52,858 nucleotides of DNA, from NCBI GenBank assembly GCA_039794565.1, contig JAUQVX010000007.1, positions 59,613-112,470 on the forward strand, in the 5' to 3' direction. A program made the translations under genes and the position numbers. The stretch's first letter is position 1. Each line of letters opens with the position of its first letter. This document shows positions 5,889 to 9,627 of this stretch, piece by piece. The DNA comes from Gloeomargarita sp. SRBZ-1_bins_9 (GTDB lineage: Bacteria > Cyanobacteriota > Cyanobacteriia > Gloeomargaritales > Gloeomargaritaceae). The notes below the pieces were generated by a model that was given only the letters and a program-made list of their open reading frames with translations, did not search any database and was not told the origin of the DNA.

Positions 5889-6872
5889 TTAACCCCAGCG
5901 GCAGACCAGCGCCCCCAGGGTCAACCCGGCCCCGAAGCCCGCCAGCACCAGGGTCTGACCGACGCGAATACGCCCTGCGCGCACCGCCTCATCCAGCACG
6001 ATGGGAATCGAAGCCGCCGACGTATTGCCATACCGGTCCAGATTGCTCAGCATCCGCGCCGCCGGCACCCCCAGCCTGGCTGCCACCGCATCCAAAATCC
6101 GTTGATTCGCTTGATGCAATACAAAGTGATCAATCTGGTCACTGGTCAAACCGGCCCGGAACAGCGCCTTTTCAATCACCTCCGGCACCCGTTTGACAGC
6201 AAACTTATAGACCTCCTGACCGTTCATGGCAATGGACCGGTAGGCGCCGCAGGTGACCGTCAAACCGTCAAGCAGGGGTTGGGGTTTGCCCCCATAGGCC
6301 AGGGTGAGACAGGCGTGCTGGCTGCCGTCGTTTTGCAACTCAAACCCCAGCAGACCGTCCGGGGTATCTGCCGCCAAGGCCACTGCACCGGCCCCATCCC
6401 CAAACAAAATACACGTCCGCCGGTCCTGCCAATCCACCCAGCGCGACAGCACATCCGCCCCAATCACCACCGCCCGCCGATAGGCCCCCGTCTTCAAAAA
6501 TTGGGCCGCCGTCACCACCCCGTACACAAACCCAGAGCAGGCCGCCGTCAGGTCAAAGGCCACCGCCCGTTTTGCCCCTAACCGGTCTTGCACTAGGCTG
6601 GCCGAACCAAACAAATCATCGGGTGTGGAGGTGGCCAGAATGATCAACTCGATGTCCAGGGGATGCCAACCTGCTGCTGTCAGGGCCTGTTGCGCCGCCT
6701 GGACCGCCAAATCCGTCACTCCCTGGTCGGGGTGGACCAAGCGCCGCGTGCGAATCCCGGTGCGGGTGACGATCCATTCATCGCTGGTGTCCACCAACCG
6801 GCTCAACTGGTGATTATCCAGTACGCCGGCTCCCTCAGCCCGACCCGTTCCCAGCCAACGCACGCCCAGCAC
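5889..6872 (-). CDS. fabH: 3-oxoacyl-ACP synthase III
   Basis: Condenses acetyl-CoA with malonyl-ACP to start fatty acid synthesis (327 aa). The thiolase-fold catalytic triad is visible: Cys112 in DLTAACSGFVYG, His253 in VLHQANQRI and Asn283 in DRYGNTSAAS. The N-terminal ETSDEWI-like motif (here DTSDEWIVTRTGIRTRR) is characteristic. The start is GTG: its G is the last base of the plsX stop (TAGTG), a 1-bp overlap implying coupled translation. plsX-fabH is a common lipid-synthesis pair. Confidence 0.96.
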   Translation of the reverse strand: MLGVRWLGTGRAEGAGVLDNHQLSRLVDTSDEWIVTRTGIRTRRLVHPDQGVTDLAVQAAQQALTAAGWHPLDIELIILATSTPDDLFGSASLVQDRLGAKRAVAFDLTAACSGFVYGVVTAAQFLKTGAYRRAVVIGADVLSRWVDWQDRRTCILFGDGAGAVALAADTPDGLLGFELQNDGSQHACLTLAYGGKPQPLLDGLTVTCGAYRSIAMNGQEVYKFAVKRVPEVIEKALFRAGLTSDQIDHFVLHQANQRILDAVAARLGVPAARMLSNLDRYGNTSAASIPIVLDEAVRAGRIRVGQTLVLAGFGAGLTLGALVCRWG

Positions 6873-7924
6873 TAGCGACCATCCCGCCGGGTCAAGGCAC
6901 CCACTTTTTCCTCCAGCCGCTGCACCACCCGCTGCTCCACGGCTTCAGCAGCCAGCCGGATGGCATTGAAAACCGAGGGTGCGTGGGAACTGCCGTGGCC
7001 AATCACACACACCCCCGGCACCCCCAGCAGCAAAGCACCACCCCGTTCCGCGTCGTCCAACCGTTGCTTCACCCGCCGCAGGTTATCCCGCAGCAGGGGC
7101 ACCCCCACCATTCCCCGCCAGCCCCGCGGCAGTTCATCCCGCAGCAGTTGCACAATCACCCGCCCCACCCCCTCAGCAAATTTCAGTAAGATGTTGCCCA
7201 CGAAGCCATCACACACCACCACATCATAGGCCCCGGAAATCACATCCCGGCCCTCAGCATTGCCGACAAAATCAATTTCGGGATTCTGGGCCAGGAGTTG
7301 ATAGGCTCGCACCGCCACGTCATTGCCCTTGCAGGGTTCTTCCCCGATATTCAGCAAACCCACCTTCGGCCGGGGCACCCCCAGTACGCATTGGCTGTAA
7401 ATGGAACCCATCAGGGCAAACTGGTTGAGAAATTTGGGCCGGCAATCCACATTAGCCCCCACATCCAGCAACAACACCGATTTATCGGGGATTAACGTCG
7501 GCAGGGTGACCCCAATCGCCGGTCGGTCAATTCCCGGTAACCGCCCCAGGTGCAACAACGCCGCCGCCATCACCGCCCCCGTATGACCCGCCGAATAAAC
7601 CGCATCCGCCTGCCCCTCCCGCACCAGGTTCATGGCCACCGTGATCGAAGCCTCCGGCTTTTGGCGTAGGGCCGTCAGGGGTTCCTCATGCATGGCAATG
7701 GCCTGCTGAGCCGGAATAATCGTCAGTCGGTGCTGGTGCTGGGCCAACAGAGGTTGCAGGCGCTCCGACTGGCCGACCAACAAAATCTCCACATCCAATT
7801 CGGCTTGTGCGCGCAGGGCACCGGTGACGATTTCCTCAGGCGCATAGTCCCCTCCCATCGCATCTACCGCAATCCGGGGCCGGTTGCACACCATGCCGTT
7901 CTCGCACGCACGTCGGTTAAGCAT
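6872..7924 (-). CDS. plsX: Phosphate acyltransferase PlsX
   Basis: Makes acyl-phosphate from acyl-ACP for phospholipid synthesis (350 aa as called). The family hallmark IAVDAMGGDYAPEEIV is near the N-terminus; GHTGAVMAAALL, LLDVGANVDC and CDGFVGNILLKF follow. The ATG at 7924 is chosen because longer versions overlap rpiA and because GAGGGAG lies upstream; an internal ATG ten codons further in is possible. It is 16 bp downstream of rpiA and overlaps fabH by 1 bp. Confidence 0.95.
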   Translation of the reverse strand: MLNRRACENGMVCNRPRIAVDAMGGDYAPEEIVTGALRAQAELDVEILLVGQSERLQPLLAQHQHRLTIIPAQQAIAMHEEPLTALRQKPEASITVAMNLVREGQADAVYSAGHTGAVMAAALLHLGRLPGIDRPAIGVTLPTLIPDKSVLLLDVGANVDCRPKFLNQFALMGSIYSQCVLGVPRPKVGLLNIGEEPCKGNDVAVRAYQLLAQNPEIDFVGNAEGRDVISGAYDVVVCDGFVGNILLKFAEGVGRVIVQLLRDELPRGWRGMVGVPLLRDNLRRVKQRLDDAERGGALLLGVPGVCVIGHGSSHAPSVFNAIRLAAEAVEQRVVQRLEEKVGALTRRDGR

Positions 7925-7940
7925 TGTATCAGAATCTCCC

Positions 7941-8651
7941 TCACCACACCCGCACCTGGGTTTGGCCCTCCACCACCTGGCCAATCAGCACCCGCCCTGC
8001 TAGACCGACAAATAGTCCATTCTCCACCACGCCCGGGATATTGTTGATCCGCATTTCCAGATCCGCCGGGTTGGGAATCGCCGGGAACCTCACATCTATC
8101 ACCATATTGCCCTGGTCGGTGATCACCGGGCCGTCCTTTTTCACCGCCATGCGCAACTCCGGCTGCCCCCCCAATCTGGCCAAGGCCCGCATCACCGGCG
8201 TTACCGCCATGGGGATTACCTCCACCGGCACCGGGAAGGTACTGCCCAGGCGCTCCACCAGCTTGGACTCGTCCACCACCACCACGAACTCCTGGGCCAG
8301 GCTATCCACCACCTTTTCCCGGGTGTGGGCCGCCCCTCCCCCCTTGATCAAATTCTTGTGGGGGTCCACCTCATCGGCGCCGTCAATGGCCAGGTCAATC
8401 GTCTCCACCTCATCCAGGGTTGTCAGGGGAATCCCCGCCTGCCGGGCCAGAACAGCCGCTTGAAAGGAGGTGGGCACACCCCGCACCCCTTGAATTTCAC
8501 CCCGCCGGAGCCGTTCCCCCAGCGCCTGGATCATGAAGGCCGCTGTTGAACCCGTCCCCAACCCCACCACCATGCCGGAGGCCACCAACTGGGCCGCCTG
8601 TTGCCCGACCGCCTGCTTGGCCAGCTTGATGAGTTCAGGGGATGCCGTCAT
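7941..8651 (-). CDS. rpiA: Ribose-5-phosphate isomerase A
   Basis: Interconverts ribose-5-phosphate and ribulose-5-phosphate in the Calvin and pentose-phosphate cycles (236 aa). Diagnostic segments are [16 protein letters not shown] near the N-terminus, [17 protein letters not shown] in the active-site region and [11 protein letters not shown]. The start MTASPEL (8651) is chosen over a longer frame because GGAGG sits 7 bp upstream and the family starts here. It heads the minus-strand row that continues through plsX, fabH and the atp genes. Confidence 0.95.
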
Positions 8652-8804
8652 GCCTATTCCTCCACCACCGTTTTTCAGGCTAGCGCAAAACGGCACCCCC
8701 ATAAACACGGCAAGGGTCTGGCTGTTAGTCGAGCCAAACCCTCCAAGCATCTTCATCAAGCGACTTTTAGGTTAGGTATTTTAGGTAAACGAAGTAAACG
8801 AGGT

Positions 8805-9029
8805 TGACGGATAACGGACCCAACTTCTCACTGCGGGGCTGACGGTGGCCTGGGTCGATCCAGACCCAACTACAGAGTCGTTACCCACACGAGACTCTCT
8901 ATCTATGCCACCTGACTCAGCACTAATGGGTTCAACCAACACGACTGCGCAATCGCTTGTGTTTACACCCTCCCTGCCGGGAAGTGGGTAGGATCGCGAC
9001 CGGGGCACCTACGTCTCGATCCCTTTTTT
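8805..9029 (+). ncRNA. Candidate structured non-coding RNA, family not recognised
   Basis: Read on the plus strand, this stretch folds into nested stems that I paired by eye. GACCCA 8817-8822 pairs with 8927-8932 (one G-U); GCTGA 8838-8842 with TCAGC 8917-8921; GGTGGC 8844-8849 with GCCACC 8907-8912. These enclose two hairpins: TGGGTC/GACCCA (8851-8868) and AGAGTC/GACTCT (8874-8898). A third hairpin, AACAC..GCG/CGC..GTGTT (8938-8963), follows, then an intrinsic terminator with six T's. So many perfect stems plus a terminator in DNA without a protein gene argue for a functional RNA. It does not match the parts I know of RNase P RNA, tmRNA, SRP RNA or the cobalamin riboswitch. The 5' end is a guess. 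Confidence 0.5.
8991..9029 (+). terminator. Intrinsic terminator of the candidate RNA
   Basis: GGATCG (8991-8996) pairs perfectly with CGATCC (9017-9022). The stem extends through GAC/GTC (8998-9000 with 9013-9015) across one mismatch, and TTTTTT follows at 9024-9029. The orientation requires a plus-strand transcript ending here, although no protein-coding gene on that strand lies upstream within 8 kb. Confidence 0.7.
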
Positions 9030-9204
9030 GCTGCCTTCTAGGTGCCTAATATCACTATAGAAAATTCCCCTGGACTGGCGGTCGTTTATTACATATTTGT
9101 GATAACTCTTTGCTGACTTTGACATGGGTAAATACTTGTTTAAGAGGGGGGGAGGTAAGATTTTTGGTAGGCTAGTCAAAAAAAATTAAGGAGGGGCGAG
9201 TCTG

Positions 9205-9627
9205 GTGTTGCGGTTACTGGTCGCTTGGCTGACGGTGGTGGTGATCTGGGGAGGGCTGACCACGCCGGTCCTGGCTCTGACGGAAGTCCGCTTGTTCAAC
9301 CTACAGGTGAGTGATTGCCCGGCGGAACTGGCGGAAGGTGCGGTCACCAGTGGGGGTCATACCCTGCCGGCGCGGTGCTACTGGGTAACCGGTCAGGCGG
9401 AAAATCCCACCAACCGCACGGTGTATGACGCGGATGTGTTTGGTCGGGTTTATGACGCTAACGGGGAACCAGCGATTCCTAAGCGTGGGCGCCTCGGCAC
9501 CATCGAAGAAATCCCGCCGGGGATCAGCGAGTTTCATCTGCCCCTGATGGTTCCGGCGGATCAACCACCCCCGTTGCAGTTGAGTCAATTTAAGGCCATG
9601 GGCTTTAGCGCCAAGGTCCGCCGGTAG
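9205..9627 (+). CDS. Small secreted or membrane-anchored protein of unknown function
   Basis: 140 residues. GTG start with an excellent ribosome site (AAGGAGGGG, 8-bp spacing). An N-terminal hydrophobic segment (residues about 3-24) ending in TTPVLALT looks like a Sec signal peptide, so the mature part (about 115 aa) is probably in the periplasm or thylakoid lumen. Two Cys (in SDCPAE and ARCYWV) could form a disulfide. The rest (VTGQAENPTNRTVYDADVFG, then EIPPGISEF) has the look of a small beta-sandwich domain of the kind that follows changes in protein context (FxLYD-like). That reading is weak. No specific function can be assigned. Monocistronic, downstream of an intrinsic terminator. Confidence 0.8.
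   Translation: MLRLLVAWLTVVVIWGGLTTPVLALTEVRLFNLQVSDCPAELAEGAVTSGGHTLPARCYWVTGQAENPTNRTVYDADVFGRVYDANGEPAIPKRGRLGTIEEIPPGISEFHLPLMVPADQPPPLQLSQFKAMGFSAKVRR

Follow-up and report, generated by a model that had tools for sequence, protein, structure and literature searches.

The nearest published parallel found for the RNA element described here is the HRC-28-1 motif of Polynucleobacter, a candidate structured RNA with six stems that adjoins rpiA and was derived from comparative genomics (PMC8632094). In Polynucleobacter, rpiA is the downstream neighbour of the motif and faces the other way, and the motif, whose end looks like an intrinsic terminator, is interpreted as an element of a 3' UTR (PMC8632094). 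The likeness lies in a structured RNA beside rpiA, and the two are set apart by description only: the element of Gloeomargarita is cyanobacterial, most likely precedes rpiA and points the same way as the gene, and does not show the convergent, terminator-ended arrangement of HRC-28-1. Riboswitches and other structured 5' leaders resemble it in being long conserved leaders before a metabolic gene, with alternative stems at the 5' end and a later hairpin, but the element matches no Rfam family (E up to 10, one chance match). 6S RNA, tmRNA and RNase P RNA are likewise structured, of similar or larger size and present in the same genomes, but they are encoded at other loci.

The element lies within a 553-bp divergent intergenic region, between rpiA on the minus strand and a gene starting at 9205 on the plus strand, in a 52,858-nt stretch of the Gloeomargarita sp. 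SRBZ-1_bins_9 genome (the window, whose first letter is position 1). Rfam 15 gave no match at the gathering threshold in the window; at E ≤ 10 the only match was asR3 (20.7 bits versus a threshold of 46), a chance match, and ARAGORN found neither tRNA nor tmRNA in the window. In the same genome, 6S RNA, tmRNA and RNase P RNA each score above the Rfam cut-off at another locus, and literature searches found no description of the element. These results bear out the sequence-only reading in its claim of a structured RNA without a known family that is neither tmRNA nor RNase P RNA; the element is a real, undescribed and genus-restricted structured RNA. An exact motif scan of GTDB 220 contigs returned three loci, all of them the orthologous Gloeomargarita site, and a covariance search of 390 cyanobacteria (plus a laxer one of 39) recovered only the seven Gloeomargarita genomes, the remaining matches (E 0.004-0.5, 43-129 nt) fitting chance for so many genomes. 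In relative G007, which belongs to another genus of the same family, no element is found upstream of rpiA, other places give no convincing match (E 0.11, 43 nt), and neither plsX nor the divergent gene adjoins rpiA.

In all seven Gloeomargarita genomes the element occupies one site, with rpiA(-)-plsX-fabH on one side and the divergent gene, which encodes a secreted-like protein of 140 amino acids, on the other. It is thus upstream of rpiA in 7/7 congeners with synteny kept, in relative G005 across a contig break. Gene order and element co-occur within the genus, and the rpiA loci of other cyanobacteria are without such an arrangement. Among the loci examined, the order rpiA-plsX-fabH (5889-8651) is retained in Gloeomargarita, plsX beside rpiA was not found in other cyanobacteria, and the 140-aa gene stands beside rpiA only in Gloeomargarita. 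The 140-aa protein has a sub-threshold match to the NCBIfam FxLYD domain (E 0.0013, 18.5 of 23 bits). The features of the locus are as follows, with the element given on the strand favoured below.

7941..8651, minus strand: rpiA, ribose-5-phosphate isomerase A (Pfam PF06026, E 1.3e-70), followed by plsX and fabH
8712..8743, minus strand: leader hairpin (AGGGUUUGGCU/AGCCAGACCCU), single copy per genome, 98.8% of cells paired
8819..8827, minus strand: P1, 3' strand, partner of 8980-8988
8838..8842, minus strand: P2, 3' strand, partner of 8917-8921
8844..8849, minus strand: P3, 3' strand, partner of 8907-8912
8851..8868, minus strand: P5 hairpin (8863-8868/8851-8856), 100% paired, one two-sided change and three wobbles
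8874..8898, minus strand: P4 hairpin (8894-8898/8874-8878), two pairs with two-sided changes, longer in clade 2
8907..8912, minus strand: P3, 5' strand, two G-C to A-U changes in relative G004
8917..8921, minus strand: P2, 5' strand, G-C to U-A between clades, 100% paired
8928..8970, minus strand: P6 arm (8967-8970/8928-8931, 8958-8960/8936-8938), 79-89% of cells paired, four pairs with two-sided changes
8980..8988, minus strand: P1, 5' strand, closing the multibranch domain, 97.9% of cells paired, wobble changes at four pairs
8991..9000, minus strand: helix B, 3' strand (GUCGCGAUCC; GUCGAGAUCC in relatives)
9004..9010, minus strand: helix A, 3' strand (AGGUGCC)
9013..9022, minus strand: helix B, 5' strand (GGAUCGAGAC), which is the 3' arm of the plus-strand "terminator" of the sequence-only reading
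9040..9046, minus strand: helix A, 5' strand (GGCACCU), pairing with 9004-9010 in all six aligned sequences
9054..9059, minus strand: -10 box of the putative minus promoter (TATAGT; TATCTT or TATATT in relatives), seven homologues
9205-9627, plus strand: gene of the 140-aa protein, with a signal-like N-terminus

A conserved RNA structure at this site is well supported by comparison of the homologous sequences. The homologous intergenic region occurs in all six congeners, which were linked by blastn via the "terminator" motif, the homology then being extended by alignment; relative G005, in which a contig boundary falls inside the element, was read in two parts outside the six-sequence alignment. 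On its own, the reported stretch folds better on the plus strand than its shuffles do (-82.4 kcal/mol, z -3.1), a single one of 200 shuffles doing equally well. The consensus fold of the six aligned sequences reaches a z of -8.2 on one strand and -8.1 on the other, matched by none of 200 column shuffles. A 52-pair structure pairs 97.1% of cells in the six complete sequences and shows two-sided changes at 12 of its pairs, a level reached by none of 500 shuffles, although it was derived from the same sequences, so that the cell counts lean towards it, and cells within one clade are non-independent. When partners are slid by 1-3 columns, pairing falls to 30-50% of cells. It is this combination of pairing, two-sided changes, failing slid controls and a consensus energy beyond that of column shuffles on which the conclusion rests: helices are kept by changes on both sides, as is asked of structured RNAs in general, and the paired changes that the sequence-only reading had proposed to look for upstream of rpiA in relatives do maintain the stems. 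On neither strand does the core hold a conserved reading frame that starts with ATG.

Helix A carries two paired changes in relative G004 (C-G to U-A and U-A to G-U). Helix B has eight invariant pairs within a hairpin that is near-invariant in all seven genomes, and its internal loop (CGAG/CGAG, tandem G.A) is varied in relatives G000 and G004. By eye, lineage-specific extensions of P1 pair too, and P3 reads GGTAGC/GCTACC in relative G005; the P6 arm is the variable and weakest part of the model. The leader hairpin at 8712-8743 shows covariation no greater than in shuffles. Four of the stems drawn from sequence alone (GCTGA/TCAGC, GGTGGC/GCCACC, TGGGTC/GACCCA and AGAGT/ACTCT) covary, but the closing stem GGACCCA/TGGGTTC of the supposed 8817-8932 domain is lost in the second clade, and the conserved closing helix is P1 (8819-8827/8980-8988), which abuts the "terminator" hairpin. 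Two further pairings were discarded. One would lengthen helix A at its 5' end (columns 1-5 with 61-65); it overlaps the -10 box, and its pairs show hardly any variation. The other would join P4 or P3 to the leader hairpin or the ribosome-binding site, and by eye it is not retained across all lineages.

Transcription of the element from the minus strand, towards rpiA, is very probable. This rests on an asymmetry of G.U pairs, the make-up of unpaired bases, the tandem G.A of helix B and a conserved -10 sequence on that strand. To treat both strands alike, the structure was folded without G.U pairs, which yields an identical set of 41 pairs on either strand. Of 14 A.C/G.U departures from this strand-blind structure, 12 are G.U on the minus strand only and two are the opposite (p 0.024 against the 57% expected by composition alone), a small test in that it draws on seven closely related genomes and 14 departure cells. 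Helices derived from the minus strand, without P6, give a count of 15 to 1 for minus, from a helix set that is biased in this direction, and by eye relative G005 adds two more minus-only wobbles (U.G in P2 and U.G in P1). The wobbles of the leader hairpin (U.G, also U-A and C-G) likewise pair only on the minus strand. Unpaired positions in structured RNAs are usually A-rich and C-poor; unpaired columns here consist of A 0.30, G 0.28, U 0.26 and C 0.15 on the minus strand, and would be U- and C-rich and G-poor on the plus strand. The internal loop of helix B forms a tandem G.A (CGAG/CGAG) on the minus strand only, and U.C mismatches on the plus strand. Single-sequence z-scores do not settle the strand. 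Consensus energy was dropped as strand evidence because composition explains the difference: the minus-plus value of -5.1 lies within the range of column shuffles (-7.2, sd 5.5).

Among the seven homologues, the hexamer at 9059-9054 is the best conserved minus-strand -10-like sequence, with a mean score of 5.4 where the runner-up has 3.2, and it stands 7 nt ahead of helix A. The strand and this promoter are thus supported by the sequence comparison, and transcription would start near 9047, just past the -10. A conserved -35 matching TTGACA was not found for this promoter, and a consensus promoter scan found no promoter. On the other side of the intergenic region, downstream of the element, lies a conserved promoter-like block (9110-9145) that belongs to the 140-aa gene itself and includes TTTAAT-like and GATATT-like sequences at 9130-9145. 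Since the gene has this block, it would need no leader from the element, and the suggested role of the element as an attenuator for this plus-strand gene (start at 9205) is not favoured. Between the putative minus promoter and the plus-strand gene lies a conserved imperfect palindrome (9086-9105, TTATTACATNATTGTGATAA), which is diverged in relative G005 and looks like an operator for divergent control.

On balance, the element is best explained as a structured 5' leader of about 395 nt for rpiA(-plsX-fabH), running on the minus strand from about 9047 to 8652 and acting in cis, an explanation to which we give somewhat better than even chances. The element lies upstream of rpiA in conserved synteny and on the gene's strand, insofar as the minus strand is favoured and not proven. 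Read-through into rpiA would be expected, because there is no T-run on the minus strand after P1 or the leader hairpin (just 2-4 T in 8 nt after the latter). Also in favour is the conservation of 0.79-0.83 from the leader hairpin to the start of rpiA. The strand and promoter evidence is shared by a stand-alone small RNA of the minus strand (about 240-340 nt), which would act in trans and would end or be processed at P1 or at 8712-8743, with rpiA expressed separately. In favour of this RNA are the compactness of the domain closed by P1, a complex fold of a size unusual in ordinary leaders, and the lower conservation of the spacer at 8754-8818 (0.71), which would suit an RNA end at that place. 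However, the missing T-run after P1 and the few T after the hairpin speak against such an end, and the hairpin, the downstream stretch and the ribosome-binding region of rpiA are conserved likewise, which leaves the stand-alone RNA rather unlikely.

Improbable is the model that the sequence-only reading had preferred, in which a small RNA of about 225 nt is made from the plus strand, with its start near 8805 and its end at an intrinsic terminator (8991-9029). It agrees with the plus-strand fold of this genome (the z of -3.1 above), with the one terminator-like site found in a scan and with a tail in which 5/7 homologues keep 5 T or more among the first 8 nt, and the loop lengths of an A/B pseudoknot on the plus strand would be those of a classical H-type. 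However, the G.U asymmetry stands at 2:12 for this strand, its unpaired bases would be U/C-rich and G-poor, and the ten best -10-like hexamers include none of the plus strand in 8745-8815, so that wobbles, the make-up of unpaired bases and the one conserved -10 in a suitable place all indicate the minus strand. The terminator, too, is probably a misreading: the hairpin 8991-9022 is near-invariant and its T-tail is variable, with 6, 5, 6, 5, 3, 4 and 5 T in the first 8 nt of the seven homologues (longest run 3-6, and down to 3-4 T in two relatives), and a single site is at the level of shuffles (0.8 ± 1.0). An RNA end near 9029 is improbable as well, for the 12-nt loop of this hairpin pairs with 9040-9046, past the supposed end, to form helix A, which covaries, and conservation continues beyond. 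DNA-level regulation of the divergent promoter region, with incidental folding, would account for the promoter and operator sequence among the top conserved blocks (9054-9123) and for the palindrome at 9086-9105, but compensatory changes over 170 bp in matched register, with slid structures only 30-50% paired, are unexpected of operators and make it very improbable.

As a leader of rpiA, the RNA would first make helix A (GGCACCU/AGGUGCC) or helix B (GGAUCGAGAC/GUCGAGAUCC), either in competition or as a pseudoknot, followed by the P1-closed multibranch domain (8819-8988), the variable spacer, the second hairpin at 8712-8743 and the ribosome-binding site of rpiA. Helices A and B share 8991-9046, the full A having seven pairs and the full B eight pairs plus the tandem G.A. 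Full A and full B are hard to combine on the minus strand because the loop crossing A has only 3 nt (CCG); opening of the inner three B pairs would lengthen this loop to 8 nt and permit a pseudoknot. Both full helices together would fit the plus strand better, and on the minus strand they would have to alternate unless the inner pairs of B open. By nearest-neighbour energy, most sequences favour B, and for the isolated 5' domain relative G002 favours A. A single transcript into rpiA, the switching itself and its function are proposed here as follows: a choice between A and B, made at the 5' end and in concert with the P1 domain, would set read-through into rpiA or its translation, in response to a ligand, a protein or another cue. 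By eye, no conserved helix is seen that masks the ribosome-binding site of rpiA. In clade 2 (L005, L006, L007, L004) the A-B loop contains ACCUCC or ACCACC, complementary to the rpiA ribosome-binding region GUGGUGGAGG; this anti-SD-like sequence was rejected as a general feature, being by eye absent from clade 1.

Gloeomargarita is regarded as the cyanobacterial genus closest to plastids among known relatives, and the element adds to this plastid-related genus a well-supported structured RNA that is absent from Rfam. The corrected strand and ends make it directly testable, and tests built on the plus-strand model would examine the wrong RNA. If it is the leader of rpiA, RNA control would act on an enzyme central to sugar-phosphate metabolism and perhaps also on the lipid genes that follow rpiA. 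More tentatively, and at present doubtful, the element may represent a riboswitch-like or protein-sensing class of leaders restricted to Gloeomargarita, in which the A/B switch couples rpiA to plsX and fabH; if this were true, pentose-phosphate/Calvin-cycle metabolism (rpiA) would be tied to fatty-acid and phospholipid synthesis (plsX, fabH).
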